From Aquabacterium sp. CECT 9606 (GTDB lineage Bacteria > Pseudomonadota > Gammaproteobacteria > Burkholderiales > Burkholderiaceae_C), in the NCBI RefSeq assembly GCF_918741295.1, contig NZ_CAKKNB010000003.1, forward strand, positions 496,001-560,000: a stretch of 64,000 nt of DNA, given 5' to 3'. The translations under genes and the position numbers were made by a program. A model generated the notes under the pieces. The model had not been told where the DNA came from, did no database searches, and worked only from the letters and a program-made list of their open reading frames with translations. Below are positions 48,330 to 64,000 of this stretch, piece by piece (the stretch's first letter is position 1; each line of letters begins with the position of its first letter).

Positions 48330-48510
48330 TGAGGCCTAACTTTGAGAATAACCTGGGAGGGCAACTGTATGGATATACAGATCATTGGCGAAAGGTGCTG
48401 TCACCACAAGCCCTCTGGAGGCGGTGATGCGACGCATAACCTGCCAGGTTATTCATCAATGCCAAGGCCTAACTTGCCAGGTTATGTGGCGTGTTGAGTC
48501 ATACATTGCG
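48330..48510. other. intI leader and attI-like region
   Basis: Between intI and cassette 1. It contains the LexA box and several short direct and inverted copies of AACCTG/CAGGTTAT and GCCTAACTTTG/GCCTAACTTGCC. It ends at GTTAGGC (48510-48516), where the first cassette joins. This is where attI and the cassette promoter Pc should lie, but the exact attI borders cannot be set. Confidence 0.6.
48365..48380. promoter_or_regulatory. LexA box upstream of intI
   Basis: CTG-TATGGATATA-CAG (N10) matches the LexA core. It lies 36 bases before the intI start on the opposite strand. SOS control of integron integrases by LexA at this place is well known. Confidence 0.78.
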
Positions 48511-48520
48511 TTAGGCTTTT

Positions 48521-49512: not shown

Positions 49513-49606
49513 GCCTAACTTTTCGGTCAAGCCGACACCTACAAGCTTCGCTTGTAGGTTCCCTGCGTGCTGCGCACTCCGGTGCGGCTTACCTGTAGCG
49601 TTAGGC
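49513..49606 (+). repeat. attC2 (94 bp)
   Basis: GCCTAAC...GTTAGGC of the common type; inner hairpin CCTACAAGC/GCTTGTAGG. Confidence 0.93.
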
Positions 49607-50164
49607 TTTTGGTTGCCTTCAATCAGCAAAGTGGCAGAAGCCTCTGGCCATTGATGCTTCCACCGTTTGATCGTTTCTCGGCGTTGCTTTCTTTGGCACT
49701 CATGCACTGCGCATTCTGGCCAGGTCCGGCGCCCAGAAGCACCGGGGTTCGCAACGCGGTGGCGCAGCAGGTCTCCATCTGGCTGTCTGCCCTTTGGCAG
49801 CCTGCTCACCGCAATGCGGCACCAAAGTGCCACATGCCGCCGCTTGCTGGCTTCCTGTCCTTCGGCAGTCAGCACAAGGTCATCAGTTGGCCAAGGCTGC
49901 CCAGGCCATCACCAAGTCGCAGTCAGGCACTTGCGGTGGTTCACGGCTTGGCGTTTTCCAAAGCTGGGAGCGAACTTGGGGCGCGGCAGGAATCAAGTGT
50001 CAAACGAAGCAGGCTGATCGCCTGCTGTTTGCGTTCTGGCCAGGCGCAAGCGCATAAGGCAAAATCTCTGCACGCACACAAAGGGAGTCCGGGCATGCCA
50101 CCGTCAAGCATCCAGCAGCAAAGCAAAGCTTGCGTGCGCTCATCGGCTGTTCCTTCTCGCCCCA
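49607..50164 (+). other. Cassette 3: repeat-family cassette without conserved long ORF
   Basis: First of six related cassettes (3, 5, 10, 11, 14, 15). Shared features are CTGGCCATTGATGCTTC near the 5' end, TGGCTGTCTGCCCT...GGCAGCCTGCT in the middle, and at the 3' end AAGGGAG (50081-50087) with an ATG at 50095. That ATG opens a 53-codon frame (MPPSSIQQQSK...) into attC3, ending at the TAG in its core (50256). Longer frames change between family members, so the body is probably non-coding. Confidence 0.6.
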
Positions 50165-50258
50165 GCCTAACGTGTCGGTCAAGCCGACACCTACAAGCTC
50201 CGCTTGTAGGTTCCCTGCGCGCTTCGCGCTCCGGTGCGGCTTACCTGTGGCGTTAGGC
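50165..50258 (+). repeat. attC3 (94 bp)
   Basis: GCCTAAC...GTTAGGC, common type. Confidence 0.93.
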
Positions 50259-50282
50259 TCTTTGCGCAGTAGGAAACGACGG

Positions 50283-51353
50283 ATGCCAACTTGCCGTATT
50301 TGCCAGCACGCCTTCAATTCTCTGAAATTCCAGACTGAGAACATCAGTATCTGCACACGTTGCGTCAACACTCTCAACGAATCCCCAGAGCCCGCACGGA
50401 GTTCAGAGGCGCGCTTATCCGAAAAGCTGGCTCGCGGTATGCAACGGAATGCCGAAGGTGACTTGCATGCCGATGAAGAATGGAAGCGGCAAAAAGCCAA
50501 GAGAACCTTGGCGGACATAGATGCCGCTGTAGCAGCAGGCCTACACAACTGGATCACAAGACTGCTGGCGAAGCCAGAAAACAATACGCGAGACTTCAAG
50601 CTCATGCGAGCCCATCGACGGGGGCTACTACGCGCAGAGGGATTCGCCGATTACCCCAAAGAATGGGCGGATGTCGCCCATCGAATTCGACGCCGGGATG
50701 GCTACAAATGCACATCCTGCGATGCCACCGACACCACGCTGGACGTGCATCACATCATCTATTTGTCTAACCATGGCACTAATCAGCAAAGCAACTTAAT
50801 CACGTTGTGCAGGAAGTGTCACGAAGCCGAGCACAAGCGGATATTCGATTGGCCAGAAGCGAAAGACCCAGAATCACCAAACCCAATTCGACCATCCCCA
50901 GAGGTCCAAACATCTACACCACTTACCACACCGCAAGAACAGCCTTCAGTCATGCCAACAACTGGACCGGCACTAACCATGTTGGCCGATATAGTTGCGC
51001 CGCCATCACCTAGAACTGAACTGTGCTGCCCAAACTGCCTCACGGAGCTGACCATCCCATCGAATTTGGCGTTACCTGGAAAGATAGTTCGCTGCCCCAA
51101 ATGCATCGTCACATTCGATTTCGAAATGTCAAGGTCCAGGGCAGCACCGGCACAAGTAGTACGGACATCCAACCAGTCTGTAGTTCAATCCCCATCCCGG
51201 CCTACTGACTTTTCGCGTGATACCACCCGAAGCCCAGATGTGATCCTTACATCAAAGTCGCGTAAGCCAGTCAGTATGGGTACGATTGACCTGCTGGTCG
51301 TCTTGGCCGCAGCATTAGCATTTATTTTCCTCATTTCCTCTTCATCTTTTTGA
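50283..51353 (+). CDS. Cassette 4: HNH nuclease with zinc ribbons and C-terminal membrane anchor
   Basis: A 356-residue protein. An N-terminal zinc knuckle (C4, C7, C24, C27), a helical linker, then an HNH domain at about 138-184 with CTSCDATDTTLDVHHIIYL and LITLCRKCHEAEH (Cys pairs, catalytic His, Asn171). A Pro/Thr/Ser-rich linker follows, then a second zinc ribbon (CCPNCLTEL, VRCPKC) at about 250-275. A final hydrophobic helix (LLVVLAAALAFIFLI) ends the protein. A DNA-cutting enzyme tethered to the membrane would suit defence against incoming DNA, but that is inference. Confidence 0.8.
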   Translation: MPTCRICQHAFNSLKFQTENISICTRCVNTLNESPEPARSSEARLSEKLARGMQRNAEGDLHADEEWKRQKAKRTLADIDAAVAAGLHNWITRLLAKPENNTRDFKLMRAHRRGLLRAEGFADYPKEWADVAHRIRRRDGYKCTSCDATDTTLDVHHIIYLSNHGTNQQSNLITLCRKCHEAEHKRIFDWPEAKDPESPNPIRPSPEVQTSTPLTTPQEQPSVMPTTGPALTMLADIVAPPSPRTELCCPNCLTELTIPSNLALPGKIVRCPKCIVTFDFEMSRSRAAPAQVVRTSNQSVVQSPSRPTDFSRDTTRSPDVILTSKSRKPVSMGTIDLLVVLAAALAFIFLISSSSF

Positions 51354-51412
51354 GCAGAAAATCCATCCCGTGATTTCACATGTCAAATGCAACACCGTGC
51401 CTTCGTCCACCG

Positions 51413-51482
51413 GCCTAACTAGTTGTTCAACAGGACGTCTACCAGCTCCGCTGGCAACCGCCTGTTAACGCGGGCGTTAGGC
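51413..51482 (+). repeat. attC4 (70 bp, second type)
   Basis: GCCTAAC...GTTAGGC with inner arms GTTCAACAGG/CCTGTTAAC and a short CCAGC/GCTGG hairpin. Same type as attC11. Confidence 0.92.
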
Positions 51483-52012
51483 TTTCAGCTTCCTTCAATC
51501 AGCAATTCGGCATGGCCCTGGCCCTGGCCATTGATTCTTCTGCCGTTTTATCGTTTCACGGCGTTGCATTCTTTGGCACTCATGCACTGTGCATTCTGGC
51601 CAGGTCCAGCACTAACAAGCGCAGCAGTTCGCAACCGGGTGGCGCAGCAAGTCTCAACCTTGCTGTCTGCCCTTCGGCAGCCTGCTTGCCACCGTGCAGC
51701 GCCAAAGTGCCACACGCTATCGCCGCTTGGCTTCCTGTCCTTCGGCAGTCAGCACAACTCCCATCAGTTCACCAAGGCTGCTCATGCCATCGCCAATTGG
51801 CCTGCATCCACATGCGGTGGTTCACAGTTCGTATTCAAATATCAAGGTCGGTGGCATTTCCACGGCTCACACTCCACCGGCGTATTCCCAGCTTGCGGCG
51901 CGTCAGGCACAATTCCATCTAGTCACACAAGGGAGTTTTGGCGTGCAAAGGTCAAATGCTAGTCAGCAAAACACGGCGCGTTTTGGCTCATCCGCCGTTC
52001 CTTCTCGCCCCA
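51483..52012 (+). other. Cassette 5: repeat-family cassette without conserved long ORF
   Basis: A member of the cassette 3 family (shared TCATGCACTG.GCATTCTGGCC and GCAGCCTGCT blocks). The 3' module is GGCACAAT, AAGGGAG (51929-51935) and a GTG at 51943 opening 53 codons through attC5 to TAG at 52104. Cassette 6's gene starts 18 bases later. Confidence 0.6.
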
Positions 52013-52106
52013 GCCTAACGTGTCGGTCAAGCCGACACCCACAAGTTTCACTTGTGGGTTCCCTGCGCGCTTCGCGCTCCGGTGCTGCTTACCTGTGGCG
52101 TTAGGC
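52013..52106 (+). repeat. attC5 (94 bp)
   Basis: GCCTAAC...GTTAGGC, common type, with AAGTTTCACTT as hairpin tip. Confidence 0.93.
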
Positions 52107-52122
52107 TTTGAGAATCGCACGT

Positions 52123-52494
52123 ATGAAGGCAGCAACTTTAATCGTAGCTTTGGTTGCTGCTCTAGCAGTTCCGACACTCCTATTTATCGGGAATGTTGGT
52201 GCCAGCAAGGTCCAATCAGAGTTGTCTGTGGTGTCGGGGGAGTTGAAATTCAATGCGGGCAAGAGAGGAGACTCTCCCAGCATCGAAGTCAGCACCTCGA
52301 CAAGGAAGCTGAAGTTTGTATGCCCAAGAAGTGTGCGAACATTCCCTTGCAATGAACCACAGGAAGCGTTTCGTCTTGTTGCTGGTGGTGCAGGAACAAT
52401 CCGTTACTACAAGTACGAAGTTGCACCTGCCGATGCTGGGCAGGGCATCATCCAATCAGTACAGTTGGGCAATCGCTTGTATTCATTCCAATAG
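52123..52494 (+). CDS. Cassette 6: exported protein of unknown function
   Basis: A 123-residue protein with an N-terminal signal/anchor (MKAATLIVALVAALAVPTLL), followed by a beta-rich domain with two Cys (KFVCPRSVRTFPC). The ATG at 52123 is better than the TTG at 52108 because it directly precedes the hydrophobic segment. The family is unknown. Confidence 0.6.
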   Translation: MKAATLIVALVAALAVPTLLFIGNVGASKVQSELSVVSGELKFNAGKRGDSPSIEVSTSTRKLKFVCPRSVRTFPCNEPQEAFRLVAGGAGTIRYYKYEVAPADAGQGIIQSVQLGNRLYSFQ

Positions 52495-52538
52495 TCGGAA
52501 GTCCTGCATGTACTCAACGCCCTCTCCTACGCGCACCA

Positions 52539-52604
52539 GCCTAACATATTGGTCAAGGGGACAATTATGCTTCGCATAATCGCCCCTTACCGCGGGCGTT
52601 AGGC
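52539..52604 (+). repeat. attC6 (66 bp)
   Basis: GCCTAAC...GTTAGGC with inner arms GGTCAAGGGG/CGCCCCTTACC and hairpin ATTATGC/GCATAAT. A type seen once. Confidence 0.9.
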
Positions 52605-52612
52605 CTCTCGAC

Positions 52613-52912
52613 ATGGGAAAGAAATTGAGTCCGCAAGAGCTTGCTATTTATCGTGCAGTCGATGAAGTGCTGCACTACGTCTGGGACCCGATTGGCGTTT
52701 CCACCGTGCCGTACGCCCGCGACGAATACCATGGATATCTGCCAAAGGTTTTTGATCTTCTTATTGCAGGCAGCGCCGCCGAAGCAATCGCGGCACATCT
52801 ATCGCAAATAGTCACAGAACGGATGGGGCTATCCGAAAATCTCGGCCACGACCTAGCGATTGCCAAAATCCTTTTGGAGTGGAAGGAAGTCATTGGTGAA
52901 AAGCATAAATAG
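52613..52912 (+). CDS. Cassette 7: small cytosolic protein of a recurrent unknown family
   Basis: A 99-residue protein: LSPQELAIYRAVDEVLHYVWDPIGVS, then YARDEYHGYLPKVFDLL and a helical C-terminus ending LLEWKEVIGEKHK. I recognise the DPIGVS..ARDEY..YL pattern from many bacterial hypothetical proteins, often in mobile DNA, with no known activity. Confidence 0.75.
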   Translation: MGKKLSPQELAIYRAVDEVLHYVWDPIGVSTVPYARDEYHGYLPKVFDLLIAGSAAEAIAAHLSQIVTERMGLSENLGHDLAIAKILLEWKEVIGEKHK

Positions 52913-52971
52913 AAGCAATTCGCAAAATCAGCCCTTCGGCATTTCCATGCAAACCGTGCCTTCGCGCAGCG

Positions 52972-53065
52972 GCCTAACTGGTTGGTCAAGCCGACACCAA
53001 CAAGCTTCGCTTGTTGGTTCCCTCCGTGCTACGCACTCCGGTGCGGCTTACCGCGGGCGTTAGGC
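52972..53065 (+). repeat. attC7 (94 bp)
   Basis: GCCTAAC...GTTAGGC, common type; hairpin CCAACAAGC/GCTTGTTGG. Confidence 0.93.
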
Positions 53066-53075
53066 TTTTAGTTAC

Positions 53076-53753
53076 ATGGGTCTCGTTATCCTTCCTATCG
53101 CTTTCGCCATTGGGCTTACTTGGCTTGCAGGCACATTTTTTCTTGCATACAGCGTGTGGCTGCTTCTAAAAAAATTTCCTTCTGGTCGCACATTGGGCAT
53201 ATTCTCCGCTTGCATTATCTGCTCGCTTAGCTGGTACTTTCCTAACAGAGAAAGCATTGCAAAGCGCCAGGAATTTAACCGCCTTACCACCGATTGTGGC
53301 TGGACAGTAATTCACACAACTCAAGAAGTAGATGGCATATACCTTGAATCCAAAGATGCCTCGACAAACGTGGAACAATTCAGCTCTTTGCTTAAAAATT
53401 ACAAAATAATAGAGTATGCCGAAGAAGGAGGGAGAGTCGCGCAACAAACCCAGTCATCAACGGGCCCTTCTGTAATAAAATTTAACAGTTCGCGTACACA
53501 GCGGTACGGCCTCAGCTTCCAAAGCTCAAAATTCAAATATTTTCGCCGCGATGAAGCAGTGATTTTTGATTATCAAACAGGGCAGAAGCTTGCCGTAGAT
53601 ATCCAGTATTGGCCTAACGAAACGCCAGATACTTGGGCCGACTATGCTTTACGCTTACTCTTAGCCGGCCCAAAACCTGACTATTGCCAATCGACTCCGG
53701 TTGCCCTCAACGAAAGGGTCAGCAGCGTATTAGTTCCATTGGGCATGAAATGA
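53076..53753 (+). CDS. Cassette 8: membrane protein of unknown function
   Basis: A 225-residue protein. Two N-terminal helices (about 4-32 and 40-56) precede a 165-residue extracytoplasmic domain containing TTDCGWTVIHTTQEVDGIYL and FDYQTGQKLAVDIQYWP. It is visibly more AT-rich than the chromosome. Not recognised. Confidence 0.65.
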   Translation: MGLVILPIAFAIGLTWLAGTFFLAYSVWLLLKKFPSGRTLGIFSACIICSLSWYFPNRESIAKRQEFNRLTTDCGWTVIHTTQEVDGIYLESKDASTNVEQFSSLLKNYKIIEYAEEGGRVAQQTQSSTGPSVIKFNSSRTQRYGLSFQSSKFKYFRRDEAVIFDYQTGQKLAVDIQYWPNETPDTWADYALRLLLAGPKPDYCQSTPVALNERVSSVLVPLGMK

Positions 53754-53795
53754 GGCCTGCATATAACAAATGCAACGCCATGCCTTCGCTCACCA

Positions 53796-53889
53796 GCCTA
53801 ACTTTTCGGTCAAGCCGACACCAACAAGCTCCGCTTGTTGGTTCCCTCCGTGCTGCGCACTCCGGTGCGGCTTACCTCGGGCGTTAGGC
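53796..53889 (+). repeat. attC8 (94 bp)
   Basis: GCCTAAC...GTTAGGC, common type; hairpin CCAACAAGC/GCTTGTTGG. Confidence 0.93.
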
Positions 53890-53924
53890 CTTTTTGAGGT
53901 GCACAGCAAACATGGAGCCCAAAG

Positions 53925-54191
53925 ATGGCCAAAAATGATGAAACTTATCGCGTTGTTGTCGTCGAGAGTTTTGCCCCTAAATCCACATCGGGGTTACATG
54001 GCGAGGTTCATGTCCGACCTATCGATGGTCAGGGTCTCCCCACGACATTGCACGTAGAGTGCTCGAAGAAGCTATGCAGAGACTATCCAGTGGGCACGCG
54101 ATTTCGCATTCGAGCAAAGCTCACAGATCGCGAAGGCAGTGGAGACTTCCTCTACAGCTACCACGCATGGCCAGTAGAAGTTCTGACCTAG
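53925..54191 (+). CDS. Cassette 9: small beta-rich protein of unknown function
   Basis: An 88-residue protein: YRVVVVESFAPKSTSGLHGE, VHVRPIDGQGLPTTLHVECSKKL, TRFRIRAKLTDREGSGDFLYSY. The all-beta pattern is seen in many hypothetical proteins of cassette arrays. No function is known. Confidence 0.7.
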   Translation: MAKNDETYRVVVVESFAPKSTSGLHGEVHVRPIDGQGLPTTLHVECSKKLCRDYPVGTRFRIRAKLTDREGSGDFLYSYHAWPVEVLT

Positions 54192-54269
54192 GGGCGCTTG
54201 CATGACTTTTGTGAGCACTCGAACCCAACGCAGCTGAGCGAACATGCCGAATTCTGGCTTCGCGCCCCA

Positions 54270-54356
54270 GCCTAACATTGCGTTGCAGCTGACGCCAACA
54301 GCTTCGCTGTTGGTACCCTTCGCTGCGCTCCGGCGCCGCTGAACTTGGCGTTAGGC
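54270..54356 (+). repeat. attC9 (87 bp)
   Basis: GCCTAAC...GTTAGGC with GTTGCAGCTGACGCC arms and the CCAACAGC/GCTGTTGG hairpin. A distinct type. Confidence 0.92.
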
Positions 54357-54833
54357 TTTTGGTTGCATGAAGTCATGCAATGTGGCGAAGTCTGGCCATT
54401 GATGCTTCAACCGGCTTCGCGTATGTCGGCGCCGCTTCCTTTGTTGGCCAGGCATTCCGCGTTTTGCAAAGCACAGATTTAACAGGCTTCGCGGGTCACA
54501 ACTTGGCGGCCAGGCCAAGTCTCAATCTGGCTGTCTGCCCTGCGGCAGCCTGCTCACCACCGCTGTTCGCCAATGCGCCTCACGCCATCGCCTCATCGCG
54601 GGCCGTCCTACGGCGGCCCAGGTTCACCACTCGCTCACTGCAAGCCAACGCACAAACCATCACGGCATATTGCTTGGCCAAAGTCACGTTGAACATTCAA
54701 GCCACTGCAGGCCATTGCCTGCAGCAAAGTGGCGGCACAATGGCCAAGCAACTCCAGGGGGCAGCTATGCGGTTCGCAATCAAATTCACGGCACGGGTAA
54801 GCGGGCTCAACCCCTCTTCCACTTCGCGCCCCA
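54357..54833 (+). other. Cassette 10: repeat-family cassette without conserved long ORF
   Basis: Closely related to cassettes 11 and 14 (GGCTTCGCGGGTCACAACTTGG, TCGCGGGCCGTCC.ACGGCGGCCC, and a CTGCAGGCCATTGCCTGCAG hairpin). The 3' module is CACAAT (54736-54741), AGGGGG and an ATG at 54767 opening 52 codons (MRFAIKFTARV...) through attC10 to TAG at 54925. Confidence 0.6.
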
Positions 54834-54927
54834 GCCTAACTGTTCGGTCAATCCGACACCCACAAGCTCCGCTTGTGGGTACCCTCCGTGCTTCGCACTC
54901 CGGTGCGGCTTACCTCGGGCGTTAGGC
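54834..54927 (+). repeat. attC10 (94 bp)
   Basis: GCCTAAC...GTTAGGC, common type. Confidence 0.93.
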
Positions 54928-55410
54928 TTTTGGCTGCCTTGAACGTCAGCTATATGTGGCATCTCTGGCCATTGATGATTCCACGGCTTGTTCGTTTTGT
55001 CGGCACTGCATCCTTTGGAACTCGCGCGCTGCTCGTTTCTCAAGGCACAGATTTGTCAGGCTTCGCGGGTCACAACTTGGTGGCAAGGCGAAGTCTCAAT
55101 CTGGCTGTCTGCCCTGCGGCAGCCTGCTCACCAACGCTGTTCGCCAACATGCAGCACGCCATCGCCTCATCGCGGGCCGTCCTTCGGCGGCCCAGGTTCA
55201 CCGTCGTCTCTTGGCAAGCCACCGCCCAAACCATCACGGCATATTGCTTGGCCAAAGTCACGTTGAACATTCACGCCTCCGCAGGCTCTTGCATGGCCGC
55301 AAAGTCGCGGCACAATGTTCAGCAGCAAATCCAAGGGGCGGCTATGCGGTTCGCAATCAAATTCACGGCACGGGCAAGCGGGCTCAAACCCTCTTCCACT
55401 TCGCGTGCCA
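54928..55410 (+). other. Cassette 11: repeat-family cassette without conserved long ORF
   Basis: Near relative of cassettes 10 and 14. CACAAT, AAGGGG and an ATG at 55344 open a 40-codon frame (MRFAIKFTARASGL...) that stops at TAA 55466 inside attC11. Confidence 0.6.
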
Positions 55411-55480
55411 GCCTAACTGGTCGTTCAACAGGACGTCTACCAGCTTCGCTGGTAGCCGCCTGTTAACTCGGGCGTTAGGC
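55411..55480 (+). repeat. attC11 (70 bp, second type)
   Basis: GCCTAAC...GTTAGGC, same type as attC4. Confidence 0.92.
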
Positions 55481-55498
55481 CTTCACTAGCGACAGAAC

Positions 55499-55882
55499 AT
55501 GCAGCTCATCAAACAAAGCGAAATACAGGTGTTGCGCAACTCCGGAGTGGAATCGGAGCAGTTAGTTTTTCCAGAATCATCACCGGATGCAAAAGCAACC
55601 GTCACCCGCGTCACAGTGCCGTCAGGCACAACCAACCAACGCCACGTGCACGAAACGTCTGAACAAATCTGGGTGGTGCTTTCTGGAGGTGGCACGCTTC
55701 TACTCGAAGGCACGTCTGAAGTACAAATCCAAGAGGGTGACGTAGTACGCTTCGCCCCAGGCGACGTTCATGGCTTCTTCAACAGCAGCAGCAGCCCGTT
55801 TGTTTACTTATCCGTGACAACACCACCCCTGAACTTTAGAAGCGCATACGCTAAAGGCTGGGGCGAGAATTTGAAGCTGTAG
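55499..55882 (+). CDS. Cassette 12: cupin-domain protein
   Basis: A 127-residue single cupin. Motif 1 is RHVHETSEQIWVVLSGGG, motif 2 FAPGDVHGFFNSSSSPF. Metal ligands His, His, Glu and His are present. It is probably an enzyme or sensor of small molecules; no substrate can be inferred. The ATG is 24 bases after the cassette boundary. Confidence 0.85.
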   Translation: MQLIKQSEIQVLRNSGVESEQLVFPESSPDAKATVTRVTVPSGTTNQRHVHETSEQIWVVLSGGGTLLLEGTSEVQIQEGDVVRFAPGDVHGFFNSSSSPFVYLSVTTPPLNFRSAYAKGWGENLKL

Positions 55883-55970
55883 CTACTTATGGCCATCGCC
55901 ATGCAAGGCCGCATCATCATTATCCATAGGCAGTTCAGCGTGGTCTCATCTGTCTTTGCATCTGTCACCC

Positions 55971-56040
55971 GCCTAACTCGGCGTTCAACTGGACATCAAC
56001 GTGCTGCGCACGTTGCTGCCAGTTAACTGGGGCGTTAGGC
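55971..56040 (+). repeat. attC12 (70 bp, third type)
   Basis: GCCTAAC...GTTAGGC with arms GTTCAACTGG/CCAGTTAAC and hairpin CAACGTGC/GCACGTTG. Same type as attC13. Confidence 0.92.
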
Positions 56041-56057
56041 CTCCAGAAGCACCATCT

Positions 56058-56465
56058 ATGACGATCAAGCAAAAGCCACCAAAGGGCGACAATCGCTACC
56101 GGGTACATCGCTCTGTCAAGCTTTACGTAGCGAAGCTTGAATGCGGCACCGTCAGTTGCACTTGGTATATCAATGAGTCCATCGAGCGCGTCGTATATGT
56201 CGGATTGAACGGAACTGAGAAGGTGCTCTACAAAACGGACTTCTATGAGCTTCAGTCACCAGAACGGCTAAAGAGCTTGGTGAAGAGCCAACTAAAAAGT
56301 GGCGGCGGCCTTCATATTGGCGGCAAGTCGGTCAGTGCTGTTGATGGAGAAAGAACCTATCAAGCGTATCCTTTCATCGACATCTCAAACCAAGCGGACA
56401 GAAAGCAGCATGACATATACCGTAGGGTTCAAGGGCAGCAGAGAAGCGAGCAAAAATCAAAGTAG
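56058..56465 (+). CDS. Cassette 13: small protein of unknown function
   Basis: A 135-residue basic protein: MTIKQKPPKGDNRYRVHRS, KLYVAKLECGTVSCTWYINE and a Lys/Arg/Gln-rich end. The true start is the ATG at 56058; the frame before it lies in attC12. A second short frame with AGGGGA and a GTG at 56476 (VKFTTKSTAKPS) runs into attC13 to a TAA at 56598 and resembles the 3' frame of cassettes 10, 11 and 14. Confidence 0.6.
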   Translation: MTIKQKPPKGDNRYRVHRSVKLYVAKLECGTVSCTWYINESIERVVYVGLNGTEKVLYKTDFYELQSPERLKSLVKSQLKSGGGLHIGGKSVSAVDGERTYQAYPFIDISNQADRKQHDIYRRVQGQQRSEQKSK

Positions 56466-56542
56466 GGGAATCGCAGTGAAATTTACAACCAAATCCACGG
56501 CCAAGCCAAGTCAGCCTCACCCAACTTCCTCTTCGCGCCCCA

Positions 56543-56605
56543 GTCTAACTCGGCGTTCAACTGGACATCAACGTGCTGCGCACGTTGCTGCCAGTTAACT
56601 GGGGC
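56543..56605 (+). repeat. attC13, left part, interrupted by IS1111 copy 1
   Basis: Begins GTCTAAC (a variant core), is of the attC12 type, and breaks at 56605 just before the GTTAGGC, which now lies at 58066-58072 beyond the IS. Confidence 0.88.
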
Positions 56606-58065
56606 TACAAGGGCTTCCCCATCTGTCAAGCAAAACGAATCCCTGACCAATCGCGCAAGCGATTGATCTGACGAATACAAACCACCAATCTTCAGGGAGA
56701 ACAAGCGGGGACATCGAGCAGGGATAAGGACGGCGACACTACAAACGGCCTTTGTTGCAGCTCATCGCTGCGGGCCCTGATGAAAGACGCGCGCGGGGGC
56801 TCCATTCGTTAGCCAAGGTCGCCAGATGGCACCTTCCAAAGTTAACCGAGCATTCCCCGCGCAGGTCCAACCTGGCTCATCAACGCTTTCGTCACACCAT
56901 GAAGATTCGGTTCATCAATCGTGCCGCTTCATCAAGCCAAGGGCTTGAACGCTTCGCCTTTGCTGAGCATCGCCCAGGCCATGCGCGCATTCTTGGCCGC
57001 AATGGCCACCACCGCTTTCCAGTAGCCTCGCCGCTCGGCCACGCTTTGCGCCCAGCGACTCAATCTGTCCGTCTTGTTCTTACTGCTGACCAGCACCGCT
57101 CGGGCGCCCAGGATGAACAAGCATCTCAAGTACGAGTCGCCCGTTTTGGTGATGCGCCCCAGCCGCTGCTTGCCACCCGAGCTGTACTGCCCGGGCACCA
57201 GACCCAGCCAGGCCGACACCTGCCGACCGCACTTGAAGTCGTGCCCATTGCCGATGCTGGCCAGCAAGGCGCTGGCCGTGGTTGGGCCAATGCCGGGCAT
57301 GGCCATCAACTGGCGGCCTCGCTCGTCCGATTGCGCCATCACTTTGATGTGCTGGTCGTACTCGGCGATGCGCCCGTCCAGGTGGTGCAATTCGCTCAGG
57401 CTGTCACCGATGGCCGTATTGGCCCAACCGGGCAAATCTTCCAGGTGCAGGCCCGCTTCGCGGCGCACCACTTCGGCCTTGAGCGGCAGCACGATGCCAA
57501 ACTCCGACAGCAGGCCTCGGATGCGGTTGATCGTGGCCGTGCGTTGCTCAACGAACCCTTGCCGCACTCGGTGGATGCTCAACCGCCCTTGGGCGTCTTC
57601 GCTCTTGATCGGCACGAAGCGCATGTGCGGGCGCTGCACGGCTTCGCAGATGGCCTGCGCGTCGGCCGCGTCGTTCTTGCCTTTGCGCCCCGACAGCCGA
57701 TACGGCGCCACGAACTTGGGCGCCATCAAGCGCACCGTGTGGCCAAAGGCCTGGAACTGGCGCGCCCAGTGGTGCGCACCGGAGCACGCTTCCATGCCGA
57801 TCAGGCACGGCGGCAACTTGGCGATCATCGGCAGCAGCGCGTCTCGCTTGACTGCCGGCTTGATCAACACCGCTTTGCCCGCTTCGTCGATGCCGTGAAC
57901 TGCAAAAACGTTCTTGGCCAAATCAAGGCCGATTGCAATAATGCTCATGACTTCCCCTTCCGAATGAACCGTTGATGGAGACTTCGCACTTCCCATCTTG
58001 GTCCTTCAAGACCATTGCCGCCAATATCCGGCGGATAGTTCGGGACGGGGAAGTCCCTTTCATTC
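56606..58065 (-). mobile_element. IS1111-group (IS110 family) element, copy 1, in attC13
   Basis: A 1460-base element with subterminal inverted repeats (AAGGGCTTCCCC near the left end, GGGGAAGTCCCTT near the right). There is no target duplication. It is inserted in the attC exactly between GC and GTTAGGC. The 325 bases after the transposase stop (56606-56931) are non-coding and in this group are expected to hold the bridge RNA. Identical to the copy at 59277-60736. Confidence 0.92.
56932..57948 (-). CDS. IS110-family transposase (IS1111 group), copy 1
   Basis: A 338-residue DEDD transposase: IGLDLAKNVFAVHGID (first Asp), IGMEACSGAHHWARQF, GKNDAADAQAICEAV, then the transposase-20 domain with MAMPGIGPTTASALLASIG, ISAWLG-like VSAWLGLVPGQYSSGG and the Ser-active region GKQRLGRITKTGDSYLR. 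The ATG at 57948 has GGGGAA as ribosome site; 16 extra upstream residues to 57996 are not needed. Confidence 0.93.
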   Translation of the reverse strand: MSIIAIGLDLAKNVFAVHGIDEAGKAVLIKPAVKRDALLPMIAKLPPCLIGMEACSGAHHWARQFQAFGHTVRLMAPKFVAPYRLSGRKGKNDAADAQAICEAVQRPHMRFVPIKSEDAQGRLSIHRVRQGFVEQRTATINRIRGLLSEFGIVLPLKAEVVRREAGLHLEDLPGWANTAIGDSLSELHHLDGRIAEYDQHIKVMAQSDERGRQLMAMPGIGPTTASALLASIGNGHDFKCGRQVSAWLGLVPGQYSSGGKQRLGRITKTGDSYLRCLFILGARAVLVSSKNKTDRLSRWAQSVAERRGYWKAVVAIAAKNARMAWAMLSKGEAFKPLA

Positions 58066-58547
58066 GTTAGGCTTTTGGTTGCATGAAGTCAGCAATGTGG
58101 CGAGGTCTGGCCATTGATGCTTCAGCCGTTTGCACGTATGTCGGCGCCGCTTCCTTGGTTGGCCGGGCATTGCGCGTTTTGCAAGGCACAGATTTAACAG
58201 GCTTCGCGGGCCACAACTTGGTGGCATGGCCAAGTCCAATCTGGCTGTCTGCCCTTCGGCAGCCTGCTCACCACCGCTGTTGGCCAACGTGCCGCACGCC
58301 ATCGCCTCATCGCGGCCCGTCCTGCGGCGGCCCAGGTTCACCAGGGTCTCACGGCAAGCCACCGCACAAACCATCGGCATATTGCTTGTGCAAAGTCACG
58401 TTGAACATTCAAGCCACTGCAGGCCAATGCCTGCAGCAAAGTCGCGGCACAATGGTCAGCAGCAAATCCAGGGGGCGGCTATGCGGTTCGCAATCAAATT
58501 CACGGCACGGGCAAGCGGTCTCAAACCCTCTTCCACTTCGCGCCACA
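58066..58547 (+). other. Cassette 14: repeat-family cassette without conserved long ORF
   Basis: Starts with the GTTAGGC end of interrupted attC13. Closely related to cassettes 10 and 11. CACAAT, AGGGGG and an ATG at 58481 open 52 codons (MRFAIKFTARASGL) through attC14 to TAG at 58639. Confidence 0.6.
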
Positions 58548-58641
58548 GCCTAACTGTTCGGTCAATCCGACACCCACAAGCTCCGCTTGTGGGTACCCTG
58601 CGCGCTTCGCGCTCCGGTGCGGCTTACCTCGGGCGTTAGGC
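58548..58641 (+). repeat. attC14 (94 bp)
   Basis: GCCTAAC...GTTAGGC, common type. Confidence 0.93.
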
Positions 58642-59189
58642 TTTTGGGTGCCTTCAATCAGCAATGCGGCAGAAGCCATTGGCCATTGATGCTTCCACCG
58701 TTTGATCGCTTCTCGGCGCTGCTTCCTTTGGCACTCACGCGCTGGTCATCTTTCCAGGCACAGCGCTAATGGTCATCGCGCTTTGCCGCGTGGCGGCCCG
58801 GCAAAACTCAAGCTGGCTGTCTGCCCTTCGGCAGCCTGCTGACCGCAATGCAGCGCCAAAGTGCCACGCGCAGTCGTCTGCTGGCTTCCTGTCCTTCGGC
58901 AGTCAGCGCAAGGTGATCAGTTGGTCAAGGCTGCCCAGGCCATCGCCAAGTCGCAGTCAGGCACTTGCGGTGGTTCACGGCTTGACGTTTTCCAACGGGT
59001 GGCGGCGAACTGGGACCTCTGCAAAAATCAAGTGTCACACGGGCAGTCCGCCTGTCGTCGGCCTGCAGGCACATGTGCATCAGGCAGAATATCGGCACAT
59101 CACGCAAAGGGAGTTCAGCATGCCAAGGTCAAGCATCCAGCAGCCAAGCAAGGCTTGCTTTTGCTCATCGGCTGTTTCTTCTCTCACCA
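58642..59189 (+). other. Cassette 15: repeat-family cassette without conserved long ORF
   Basis: Close to cassettes 3 and 5. AAGGGAG (59107-59113) and an ATG at 59120 open 51 codons (MPRSSIQQPSK) into attC15, ending at TAG 59275, two bases before the IS1111 junction. Confidence 0.6.
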
Positions 59190-59276
59190 GCCTAACTTTG
59201 CGGTCAAGCCGACACCTACAAGCTCCGCTTGTAGGTTCCCTGCGCGCTTCGCGCTCCGGTGCGGCTTACCTGTAGC
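59190..59276 (+). repeat. attC15, left part, interrupted by IS1111 copy 2
   Basis: GCCTAAC and the common-type arms up to CTGTAGC. The closing GTTAGGC is now at 60737-60743. Confidence 0.9.
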
Positions 59277-60736
59277 TACAAGGGCTTCCCCATCTGTCAA
59301 GCAAAACGAATCCCTGACCAATCGCGCAAGCGATTGATCTGACGAATACAAACCACCAATCTTCAGGGAGAACAAGCGGGGACATCGAGCAGGGATAAGG
59401 ACGGCGACACTACAAACGGCCTTTGTTGCAGCTCATCGCTGCGGGCCCTGATGAAAGACGCGCGCGGGGGCTCCATTCGTTAGCCAAGGTCGCCAGATGG
59501 CACCTTCCAAAGTTAACCGAGCATTCCCCGCGCAGGTCCAACCTGGCTCATCAACGCTTTCGTCACACCATGAAGATTCGGTTCATCAATCGTGCCGCTT
59601 CATCAAGCCAAGGGCTTGAACGCTTCGCCTTTGCTGAGCATCGCCCAGGCCATGCGCGCATTCTTGGCCGCAATGGCCACCACCGCTTTCCAGTAGCCTC
59701 GCCGCTCGGCCACGCTTTGCGCCCAGCGACTCAATCTGTCCGTCTTGTTCTTACTGCTGACCAGCACCGCTCGGGCGCCCAGGATGAACAAGCATCTCAA
59801 GTACGAGTCGCCCGTTTTGGTGATGCGCCCCAGCCGCTGCTTGCCACCCGAGCTGTACTGCCCGGGCACCAGACCCAGCCAGGCCGACACCTGCCGACCG
59901 CACTTGAAGTCGTGCCCATTGCCGATGCTGGCCAGCAAGGCGCTGGCCGTGGTTGGGCCAATGCCGGGCATGGCCATCAACTGGCGGCCTCGCTCGTCCG
60001 ATTGCGCCATCACTTTGATGTGCTGGTCGTACTCGGCGATGCGCCCGTCCAGGTGGTGCAATTCGCTCAGGCTGTCACCGATGGCCGTATTGGCCCAACC
60101 GGGCAAATCTTCCAGGTGCAGGCCCGCTTCGCGGCGCACCACTTCGGCCTTGAGCGGCAGCACGATGCCAAACTCCGACAGCAGGCCTCGGATGCGGTTG
60201 ATCGTGGCCGTGCGTTGCTCAACGAACCCTTGCCGCACTCGGTGGATGCTCAACCGCCCTTGGGCGTCTTCGCTCTTGATCGGCACGAAGCGCATGTGCG
60301 GGCGCTGCACGGCTTCGCAGATGGCCTGCGCGTCGGCCGCGTCGTTCTTGCCTTTGCGCCCCGACAGCCGATACGGCGCCACGAACTTGGGCGCCATCAA
60401 GCGCACCGTGTGGCCAAAGGCCTGGAACTGGCGCGCCCAGTGGTGCGCACCGGAGCACGCTTCCATGCCGATCAGGCACGGCGGCAACTTGGCGATCATC
60501 GGCAGCAGCGCGTCTCGCTTGACTGCCGGCTTGATCAACACCGCTTTGCCCGCTTCGTCGATGCCGTGAACTGCAAAAACGTTCTTGGCCAAATCAAGGC
60601 CGATTGCAATAATGCTCATGACTTCCCCTTCCGAATGAACCGTTGATGGAGACTTCGCACTTCCCATCTTGGTCCTTCAAGACCATTGCCGCCAATATCC
60701 GGCGGATAGTTCGGGACGGGGAAGTCCCTTTCATTC
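59277..60736 (-). mobile_element. IS1111-group (IS110 family) element, copy 2, in attC15
   Basis: Same length and content as copy 1, shifted by 2671 bases, with the same orientation and the same attC position (between GC and GTTAGGC). The attC around it is a different type from that around copy 1, showing target choice by the short core. Confidence 0.92.
59603..60619 (-). CDS. IS110-family transposase (IS1111 group), copy 2
   Basis: Identical in translation to the 338-residue transposase of copy 1, with the DEDD motifs DLAKN, EACSG and NDAADA and the C-terminal MPGIGPTTA region. Apparently intact, so either copy could supply activity. The 325 bases 3' of the stop repeat the putative bridge-RNA region. 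Confidence 0.93.
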   Translation of the reverse strand: MSIIAIGLDLAKNVFAVHGIDEAGKAVLIKPAVKRDALLPMIAKLPPCLIGMEACSGAHHWARQFQAFGHTVRLMAPKFVAPYRLSGRKGKNDAADAQAICEAVQRPHMRFVPIKSEDAQGRLSIHRVRQGFVEQRTATINRIRGLLSEFGIVLPLKAEVVRREAGLHLEDLPGWANTAIGDSLSELHHLDGRIAEYDQHIKVMAQSDERGRQLMAMPGIGPTTASALLASIGNGHDFKCGRQVSAWLGLVPGQYSSGGKQRLGRITKTGDSYLRCLFILGARAVLVSSKNKTDRLSRWAQSVAERRGYWKAVVAIAAKNARMAWAMLSKGEAFKPLA

Positions 60737-60757
60737 GTTAGGCCACTCGAACCCGCC

Positions 60758-62565: not shown

Positions 62566-64000
62566 ATGAATAGAAATTTAATCTTTAAAGTACTTGTTTG
62601 CTCTTTTATCTTGACAGCAAACAATGCCGAGGCAGGTGACGGATGCGGCAATGTTGATGGGTGCGATTATGATGTGCCTATTGATTTTGATTACATTGAA
62701 GCGCAGATGGCAATGCTGCCTGATACAATAATTTCAAATTCATTTTCGAATGAGAATTCGGCATTCTCGTTTTCAATCTACTCCACTTCATATAATACCG
62801 GCCCAAACATCCAGGGGGCATTGCCGACAACAACGGTAAGCGGGTCGGCTAGTAATTTTAATTTTTCACTTCCAATGCCCACATTATTTCCAAATGCGAA
62901 TATTGGCACGCCGGGTGGAGGAGGTGGCGGGGGTGAACCAGGAGTTGAGGTTTCAAGTGCTCCGGTGAATGACGAGTGTAAAACAGCTCGTCCCGTAGTA
63001 ATTAGAACGGGAACTAAGATTCGTACTGATGTTGATTTCAAAGGCTCGCATAGCTCTGCTTTATACCTAAAGCGAACTTATGGCTCAAAGATTGCGCCCA
63101 TCTCTATTTCTCGCCCGGGTGTATTTGGACTCGGTTGGGTGTCAAATCTGGATTTGCGGCTACTACTTTTATTTCGTGATGGAAACGTGTGCAACACCCC
63201 ACAACTCCCGTATTGCGACTTTGAAAATCCTGAGGACGTGTATGCATTAATGCGAGTAACTCCAAATGGGACCTATGCCTACACAAGAGATGGGACAGGC
63301 ACCATGAGAAGAGTAGATTCCATATATGCCTATGAAACCATTAATTACGACACTGTGAATTTTCTATGGAGCATAGAATACAAAGATGGGACCATCGAAA
63401 AATATGCGCGAGAAGGGCACCTTGTTAGCATAACAGACAGGCATGGGAATGTAATAAACTACGATTATGTATATGGCACTCCAGCGCGGATAACATCCGT
63501 GACACACTCGAACGGATCCAAGATTAGTCTCGGCTGGACAGGAGATAGAGTGACGTCGGCGACGGACATGAATGGGAATGTGGTGAACTATGGGTATACC
63601 AACGGTATATTGACGACTGTAACCTATCCAGGTCCCACTCCCACAGCTTCCGCCTACACGTATCACTACGATACGACGGTCGATAAGTTTGTAGGTGTGT
63701 CTATTGGTGGAGCCCGCTATACGATCAATGACTATTATCCGGATGGCAAGGCCTATCACAGTGGCCTGGTCGGAGGTTTAGAGAAGGATACTTTCTCGTA
63801 CGGCACTAATACGGATGGCAGCTATTTTACGCAGGTCACGGATGTGAACAACCTAACGGCAAAATATACCTTTAAAAATATCGGAGGTGCTGAACGTTTG
63901 ATCAAGGTGGACAGGGGCGCTGGTGTCGGATGTAGCGCGGCGGGCAGCAGTCAAGCTTATGACCCATCCGGCTTGTTGGTCAGTCGAGATGATTTTAATA
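62566..64000 (+). CDS. RHS/YD-repeat protein, N-terminal part (runs off the window)
   Basis: The first 478 codons have no stop. A signal peptide (LIFKVLVCSFILTANNAEA) is followed by a low-complexity region with a GTPGGGGGGGEPG linker. The RHS core opening follows (RTGTKIRTDVDFKGSHSS, LYLKRTYGSK, GVFGLGWVSNLD), then the first YD repeats (ITDRHGNVINYDY, ATDMNGNVVNYGYTNG). Such proteins form a shell around a C-terminal toxin, which would lie beyond the window. AT-rich and probably transferred. Confidence 0.85.
   Translation, partial: MNRNLIFKVLVCSFILTANNAEAGDGCGNVDGCDYDVPIDFDYIEAQMAMLPDTIISNSFSNENSAFSFSIYSTSYNTGPNIQGALPTTTVSGSASNFNFSLPMPTLFPNANIGTPGGGGGGGEPGVEVSSAPVNDECKTARPVVIRTGTKIRTDVDFKGSHSSALYLKRTYGSKIAPISISRPGVFGLGWVSNLDLRLLLLFRDGNVCNTPQLPYCDFENPEDVYALMRVTPNGTYAYTRDGTGTMRRVDSIYAYETINYDTVNFLWSIEYKDGTIEKYAREGHLVSITDRHGNVINYDYVYGTPARITSVTHSNGSKISLGWTGDRVTSATDMNGNVVNYGYTNGILTTVTYPGPTPTASAYTYHYDTTVDKFVGVSIGGARYTINDYYPDGKAYHSGLVGGLEKDTFSYGTNTDGSYFTQVTDVNNLTAKYTFKNIGGAERLIKVDRGAGVGCSAAGSSQAYDPSGLLVSRDDFN

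Follow-up and report, generated by a model that had tools for sequence, protein, structure and literature searches.

A family of integron cassettes without long reading frames in Aquabacterium, with a conserved RNA core and a 3' module that may start expression of the next gene

We analyzed a 64,000-nucleotide stretch of the 5.1 Mb genome of Aquabacterium sp. CECT 9606 (hereafter the window; positions 496001-560000 of contig 3), in which an integron array of at least 15 cassettes runs rightward from ~48511. Cassettes 3, 5, 10, 11, 14, and 15 (c3 to c15) belong to a family that has no long conserved open reading frame (ORF). Its members share a three-hairpin RNA core and a 3' module, in which a strong Shine-Dalgarno (SD) sequence and a start codon open a short frame that crosses the cassette's own recombination site, attC. 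We propose, with a probability of roughly 0.55, that these are non-coding cassettes acting in cis as portable expression starters. The strongest evidence from the module is translational (SD, start codon, frame leading to a TAG, and next genes poor in SD sequences), not transcriptional.

A lineage-restricted, multi-copy cassette family

Each of the six is an integron cassette by structure: when boundaries are cut at G^TTAGGC, all are bounded by attC sites with that crossover and a paired R' box, and insertion sequences (IS) in attC border c14 on its left side and c15 on its right. Two subfamilies are apparent, X (c3, c5, and c15) and Y (c10, c11, and c14). In the first, c3 is 83% identical to c15 over 650 nt and 74% identical to c5 over 663; in the second, c10 is 92% identical to c14 over 573 nt and 84% identical to c11 over 535. 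A sequence-only reading of the window, in which these cassettes were first described, called the six related throughout. That they are related stands (74-92% within subfamilies), but blastn aligns X with Y mainly over the first 210-280 nt, the 3' end, and attC.

The search for further members that the same reading had suggested shows the family to be larger than the six cassettes first described. A profile of the six bodies finds 18 members over both arrays of the genome, 12 of them among the 38 cassettes, as cut here with one R''-like site with a poor box omitted, of a second array (contig 4, ~531-562 kb, minus strand). Two cassettes of the second array (L033, contig 4) are composites: B_08 has a partial family member ahead of a full one, and in B_14 other sequence comes after a family body and the 3' module is missing. 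The module also occurs without the body, on c13 in the window and on B_06, B_09, and, weakly, B_26 of the second array.

Among 42 genomes of the genus, a covariance model of the RNA core (R1) finds matches in 26 at E<=0.01 but in only 13, our own included, at E<1e-10, leaving strong matches in 12 of the 41 other genomes. Where present the family is multi-copy: four genomes gave 18, 28, 16, and 21 reported matches, counts that include weak or overlapping ones. A family-level sample gives 44 of 399 genomes at E<=0.01, only 4 of them strong (our own, two of the same genus, and one of another genus at 8e-11). With stricter filters, under which weak matches are lost, two of 399 genomes in an order-level sample pass 1e-6 (our own and one at 34.6 bits), and the single match among 369 genomes of a class-level sample is our own; in other genomes, weak matches of ~18-28 bits were excluded from the family. 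Because strong matches fall off in this way across the family, order, and class samples, the family is lineage-restricted. An exact family pattern matched 7 contigs beyond the genome, and one exact pattern had no match in viral contigs. In a plasmid search with c15, the 20 listed of 48 records align only to the attC end, positions 548-635. The same family was seen in contigs of metagenome-assembled genomes that carry foreign labels, L027 (Brevundimonas) and L030 (Moraxellaceae), through misbinning or transfer.

Non-coding bodies and a conserved RNA core

We compared 37 close pairs of family bodies, drawn from our own arrays and from other genomes. Of the 174 indels, 160 have a length not divisible by three; some indels recur in several pairs, so that the events counted are not independent. 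The comparison of substitutions, also suggested by the sequence-only reading, gives dN/dS values of 0.63-1.26 for body frames on either strand, none of them low. Together these results reject a long conserved protein on either strand and bear out the earlier observation that the long frames do not match between members; the cassettes are ORF-less in the sense that no long ORF is conserved.

The best-conserved stretch of the family, which the earlier description did not include, lies at ~177-265 of c15, not at the 3' end. It is a core of ~100 nt that folds on the sense strand into three hairpins with compensatory changes, and conservation averaged over ten bases reaches 1.97 bits there, compared with 1.07 overall. 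The alifold energy of the core is -60.8, compared with -41.7 +/- 4.2 in column shuffles (0 of 100 as low, z -4.5). With 33 sequences the core scores 0.122 for covariation; the 500 shuffles give 0.068 +/- 0.006, and none reaches the observed value. In the same set 88% of core cells pair, compared with 23-48% for slid control structures. In 83 core sequences aligned without structure, cells changed on both sides of a pair number 64 in hairpin 2 (shuffled maximum 35), 12 in hairpin 1 in its CUG/CAG form (maximum 4), and 23 in the middle hairpin (maximum 20). Pairs of hairpin 2 include CG 64/UA 12/GC 1, UA 43/CG 31, CG 66/UA 8, and UA 60/GC 4/AU 1, each with some unpaired cells. The sense strand pairs better (87% vs 77% in hairpin 2, 78% vs 72% in the middle hairpin), and wobbles are of the sense type, as in a middle pair that reads GU 69, AU 8, and GC 3. 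Compensatory changes thus exceed the controls, as expected of a structured RNA, by comparison with shuffles that ignore relatedness.

Two folds were considered for hairpin 1. The first, of 7 bp (GGCUGUC/GGCAGCC), on which R1 was built, leaves pair 15/30 open in 29 of 83 sequences. We prefer the CUG/CAG fold (18-31, 19-30, 20-29) because 19/30 covaries (UA 70, AU 11, CG 1) and 15/30 is so often unpaired. Hairpins 1 and 2 are then twins, both CUGYCCUNCGGCAG with N free, presumably as in a UNCG-type loop. Pairing of the hairpin 1 loop CCCUNC with the SD was checked by eye and set aside, as N does not track the SD (c10 fits; c11 and c14 do not).

We retained 87 of 111 core-model matches, dropping 7 second copies of the same locus and 17 below 44 bits. 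An attC follows within 800 nt downstream in 78 of the 87. Removal of the 9 without one, among them c15 because an IS interrupts it, and of 7 duplicate 3' ends leaves 71 unique 3' ends. Rfam gave no match to the RNA: between 47500 and 61000 of the window no cassette matches a model up to E=5, and the scan's only hits, two to mir-662, fall in IS copies and score 21.9, below the gathering score of 88. We take sRNA-Xcc1, discussed below, to be among the models queried.

The RNA might itself be the product of these cassettes, as a trans-acting small RNA or as a cis-acting antiterminator or protein-binding platform, with the 3' module secondary. The concentration of conservation and compensatory change in the core and its sense-strand character speak for this, as do divergent cassettes of one genome (G402) that retain the core without the short frame. 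Terminator-like sites argue the other way, as they lie at differing places in c3, c5, and c15 and are absent from c10, c11, and c14; over the scanned region, intrinsic terminators number 8, compared with 12.5 in shuffles. No promoter-like site precedes any core in our sigma-70 scan, the RNA has no known target or partner, and antitermination is an analogy only. We regard an RNA product as possible, at odds of about one in three, and as compatible with an expression-starter role. Given the place and copy number of the core, our guess is a cis role, in which it would protect untranslated RNA of the array transcript from termination or decay.

A start codon and frame that lead through attC

The 3' module of the sequence-only reading, a -10-like hexamer followed by an SD and a short frame entering attC, is present in all six cassettes, and the frames of c3, c5, c10, and c14 do stop at the TAG of the core site GTTAGGC, those of c11 and c15 earlier, inside attC (Table 1). 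Across the family, an ATG or GTG that follows the SD, at -67, -70, or -73 relative to attC, opens the frame running through the site to the TAG. When cassettes of our own arrays are scored for a strong-SD ATG/GTG 55-85 nt before attC with an open frame meeting the TAG of GTTAGGC, 16 of 18 family members qualify, compared with 5 of 35 other cassettes (p=1.6e-7), and three of those five (c13, B_06, and B_09) bear the same 3' module. If the first SD-led ATG/GTG is taken in any frame, it lies in the TAG-meeting frame in 37 of 40 modules, a set that includes four on own-array gene cassettes and excludes B_14. These two comparisons are fairer tests than the wider set, in which only the TAG-meeting frame was considered and 59 of the 71 unique 3' ends have a short frame, starting at -70 (45), -73 (8), or -67 (6). 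The frame ends at the TAG of GTTAGGC in 48 of the 71, and the attC sites crossed are 61 to 112 nt long. In X-type short frames (27 frames) there are no stops in 600 codons, against 4 and 8 per 573 in the other two frames; for those of equal length, only 0.95% of column shuffles are stop-free. What is specific to the family is the SD and start codon in the attC-crossing frame.

Other arrangements were seen before attC. Many gene cassettes (in L026, L027, L028, and the window) share a box like ACCGTGCCTTCGCGCAGCGGCCTAAC directly before attC. The GTG/ATG of this box agrees in frame with the short frames and has no obvious SD. Cassettes L099-L101 of G402 keep the family core with the 3' part replaced, and three G402 cassettes have AAACGGGAGG and a TTG, from which a frame apparently continues through attC into the next cassette.

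Genes that follow the short frames

Beyond the 59 framed members lies a gene in 41 cases, another family member in 13, no clear ORF in 2, and a sequence too short to tell in 3. The next gene starts a median of 27 nt past the short-frame stop, and within 40 nt in 33 of 41. Only 4 of the 41 have an SD of <= -6 kcal/mol, against 4.5% of random stretches. Gene cassettes of our own arrays are likewise nearly devoid of SDs. When the first ATG is taken as the start, 0 of 35 have one, compared with 6 of 26 long chromosomal ORFs (p=0.004); with the best start the counts are 1 and 7 (p=0.008). Because these cassettes almost lack SDs and the short frame ends near their starts, an effect of the module on them is directly testable.

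From this arrangement we infer how the module may act. Ribosomes would load at the strong SD and start codon 67-73 nt ahead of attC and translate a short frame, whose peptide is not clearly conserved, through an attC that would otherwise be folded in the mRNA. Termination would mostly occur at the TAG supplied by GTTAGGC, some tens of bases short of the next gene. That gene, mostly without an SD of its own, would then be started by re-initiation or coupling, much as ORF-11 in attI1 serves class 1 integrons. With its -10-like block, 31-39 nt ahead of the start codon, the module might also serve as a promoter, and the three-hairpin RNA would be transcribed when polymerase arrives from upstream.

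The -10-like block and a promoter role

The -10-like block (GGCANAAT), GGCANA[A/C]T, lies ~20 nt before the SD and anchors 58 of the 59 short-frame modules; the remaining one (L030) has CACAAT, outside the anchor rule. In the six window cassettes the block is 31-35 nt ahead of the SD-led start codon, within the 31-39 nt range of the wider set. Base 2 of the hexamer is A in 56 of 56 unique anchored sequences and base 6 is T in 55 of 56, where the anchor pattern itself forces the A and allows T or C at base 6. Promoter activity of the module is plausible. Yet the -35 is weak and not strongly conserved across modules, and a stringent sigma-70 consensus scan finds no site in the 3' modules; its two sites overlap at 57914-57942 inside an IS, against a shuffle mean of 3.8.

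The sequence-only reading held that these cassettes may serve to express whatever follows them. The 3' end is indeed arranged that way, and the bodies are non-coding, modular, and multi-copy; the promoter that it envisaged is the weaker part of the proposal. The alternative that they are promoter cassettes of the published kind, whose 3'-end promoter drives the next cassettes while the short frame is incidental, can draw on the conserved block, on measured promoter activity in ORF-less cassettes of Vibrio and Treponema (PMC11014356, PMC6557892), and on the statement that in-silico prediction does not work for such promoters (PMC11014356). It leaves unexplained the start codon in phase with the TAG, the missing in-frame stops, and the RNA core, and some of the conserved bases are required by the anchor pattern. 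We consider it rather unlikely as the whole account, and compatible with the cassettes also being expression starters.

Weighing the explanations

Several observations weigh against the proposal of portable expression starters. Twelve of the 71 unique 3' ends have no short frame, eight of them G402 cassettes in which the core is kept and the start is absent, and B_03 and L097 lack it through one-base shifts. In many of these attC sites the crossing frame is open regardless of the cassette that carries them, a TAG ending is met by chance in about one frame of three, and for the Y-type short frame 20% of shuffles are stop-free. Because family sequences are related, the significance of the shuffles and Fisher tests is overstated, and SD strength and frame in the 59 are partly circular because these modules were chosen by an SD rule in one frame. 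SD energies taken as a whole do not separate cassettes from chromosomal ORFs (p=0.23); that control is small, its starts are predicted, and some of its ORFs may be spurious. Gene cassettes lack SDs wherever they are placed, so a starter cannot be every gene's requirement. As to the RNA, two of five covariation measures, both-side pair changes (15 of 500 shuffles) and further pair types (277 of 500), are weak. In the middle hairpin three pairs form in only 41-48 of 83 sequences, and in hairpin 2 an inner pair does so in only 21 of 79. Hairpin 1 slid by -3 still pairs at 95%, and nothing ties the core functionally to the 3' module.

A functional micropeptide encoded by the short frame seems very improbable. 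The frame is conserved, ATG and GTG alternate at its start, and the Y-type dN/dS is 0.69, from only 9 sequences; but the X-type value of 0.97 (22 sequences) is no lower than the 0.86 and 0.99 of the other frames and thus gives no sign of purifying selection, and attC sets the second half of the peptide, which varies with the attC type. The sequence-only reading had named a conserved protein frame across members as evidence that these are ordinary genes; the only such frame is this very short one, with a peptide that is not clearly constrained. That the cassettes are decayed genes retained by drift is scarcely credible, even though degenerate gene-less cassettes are reported in Vibrio (PMC11014356), given the covarying RNA, the conserved SD and start codon, the lack of any trace of a frame, and the spread over 13 of 42 genus genomes (12 besides our own), one of which has as many as 28 reported matches. 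These explanations overlap, and our confidences in them need not sum to one.

Somewhat short of even odds, and broader than the expression-starter proposal, is the idea that chromosomal integrons of this genus keep regulatory cassettes that combine a new class of sense-strand RNA, with the twin hairpins flanking a third, with a ribosome-loading leader running through attC to the TAG of any cassette that recombines in behind it. Cis-acting expression modules would then be moved by the integrase from one SD-less gene to another, and the part of the RNA would be to prevent polymerase or ribosomes from leaving a long array transcript full of hairpins. How cassettes far from Pc are expressed in big arrays is a standing question, to which the published answer that we found for gene-less cassettes is promoters; the present family suggests a second, translational answer. 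If either part works, distance from Pc would not be the only reason for cassette order to count; the placing of mobile cis-regulatory cassettes would be another.

Genomic setting

Table 1. Positions of the features discussed (window coordinates unless stated).
Feature	Position	Strand	Remark
c3, ORF-less cassette (X type)	49601..50252	+	
c5, ORF-less cassette (X type)	51477..52100	+	
c10, ORF-less cassette (Y type)	54351..54921	+	
c11, ORF-less cassette (Y type)	54922..55474	+	
c14, ORF-less cassette (Y type)	58067..58635	+	
c15, ORF-less cassette (X type)	58636..59275	+	attC cut by IS at ~59276
RNA core of c3	49770..49880	+	R1 114.2 bits, sequence within model
RNA core of c5	51650..51760	+	R1 114.5 bits, sequence within model
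RNA core of c10	54518..54628	+	R1 102.8 bits, sequence within model
RNA core of c11	55092..55202	+	R1 101.6 bits, sequence within model
RNA core of c14	58232..58342	+	R1 91.7 bits, sequence within model
RNA core of c15	58804..58914	+	R1 109.6 bits, sequence within model
Candidate -10-like CAAAAT of c3	50060..50065	+	
Candidate -10-like CACAAT of c5	51908..51913	+	
Candidate -10-like CACAAT of c10	54736..54741	+	
Candidate -10-like CACAAT of c11	55311..55316	+	
Candidate -10-like CACAAT of c14	58448..58453	+	
Candidate -10-like CAGAAT of c15	59085..59090	+	Outside the 59-module set, no attC partner after IS
Short frame of c3, SD-led	50095..50256	+	53 codons, through attC to TAG of GTTAGGC
Short frame of c5, SD-led	51943..52104	+	53 codons, through attC to TAG of GTTAGGC
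Short frame of c10, SD-led	54767..54925	+	52 codons, through attC to TAG of GTTAGGC
Short frame of c11, SD-led	55344..55466	+	40 codons, stops inside attC
Short frame of c14, SD-led	58481..58639	+	52 codons, through attC to TAG of GTTAGGC
Short frame of c15, SD-led	59120..59275	+	51 codons, TAG inside attC, where IS begins
HNH-domain gene of c4	50283..51353	+	26 nt past c3 short-frame stop; weak SD (-4.2 kcal/mol)
Gene of c6	52123..52494	+	18 nt past c5 short-frame stop; weak SD (-2.7)
Cupin gene of c12	55499..55882	+	32 nt past c11 short-frame stop; no SD (-0.1)
Truncated integron integrase, 217 aa	47676..48329	-	Profile coverage of catalytic domain ends at position 92 of 172
attI leader motif	48330-48513; L033 ~12445-12474 (contig 4 attI)		

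The integrase had been taken as dead. This holds for the window array, whose integrase is a fragment with an IS66 transposase gene near the broken end of its gene, but not for the genome: a full-length integrase frame of 330 aa adjoins the second array, so that cassettes could be mobilized in trans. The domain test of integrases and cassette genes covered nine proteins, with the c2 gene left out.

Two IS110/IS1111-type copies, at ~56610-58066 and 59276-60737 of the window, are inserted in the attC sites of c13 and c15. Their 354-aa transposases have identical Pfam scores, and we take them to belong to the group that targets attC. In the attI leaders of both arrays, and at one place in another genome (G411), GGGAGG is followed by a start codon inside a palindrome, CTGTATGRAYATACAG, which is presumably LexA-like. 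In both of our own arrays the short frame that opens there, M[N/D]IQIIGE..., stops before the core site; the exact leader pattern matches 2 of the 42 genus genomes, our own included. A spaced attC pattern, badly chosen, gave 0 matches in our own genome. To the right of the array, a long frame at 62575-64000 contains sequence that by eye resembles YD repeats.

Comparison with known systems

Our literature searches (ORF-less promoter cassettes; small, structured, or non-coding RNA in integrons; Aquabacterium integrons; short ORFs in attC; SD or coupling in integrons) found no resembling family, a result judged from titles and the starts of abstracts, with few subscription journals covered, and hence weak evidence of absence. 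ORF-less cassettes with promoters are already published for Treponema (PMC6557892) and Vibrio (PMC11014356). Like those, the present cassettes have no long ORF, are repeated in chromosomal arrays, and would be expected to act downstream; the sizes are also comparable (491-666 bp for the gene-less Vibrio cassettes, PMC11014356; 553-652 for these six). As those cassettes are described, ours differ in forming one sequence family, with a covarying RNA and a module of translational type. In PMC11014356 gene-less refers to a 210-bp limit, and the absence of smaller ORFs or of small RNAs is not proven there; features of that sort are what the present family contributes. An integron cassette carrying a non-coding RNA is described in Xanthomonas (sRNA-Xcc1; PMC12444791); that cassette also holds symE, and both lie against the array, whereas the RNA reported here is sense and multi-copy.

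For the 3' module, the closest counterpart is ORF-11 of attI1. This short frame brings ribosomes to cassettes that have no start region themselves (PMC8876359). Both are non-functional short frames led by an SD at a recombination site, and ORF-11 raises the translation of cassettes. The module has a canonical SD and start codon upstream of the site and a stop at the core site, but it does not lie in attI: ORF-11 is fixed there and serves the first cassette, whereas the module rides on cassettes, crosses attC, and can stand anywhere in the array. Being located on cassettes before attC, it is not an ORF-11 but may work like one, and by this analogy it may raise translation of the SD-poor gene that follows. 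Short ORFs in attC have been proposed to lift the barrier of the attC hairpin and allow re-initiation (Jacquier et al. and others, in PMC8876359). Both cases imply translation through attC; in the family described here the frame starts upstream, with a strong SD of its own, on a dedicated non-coding cassette.

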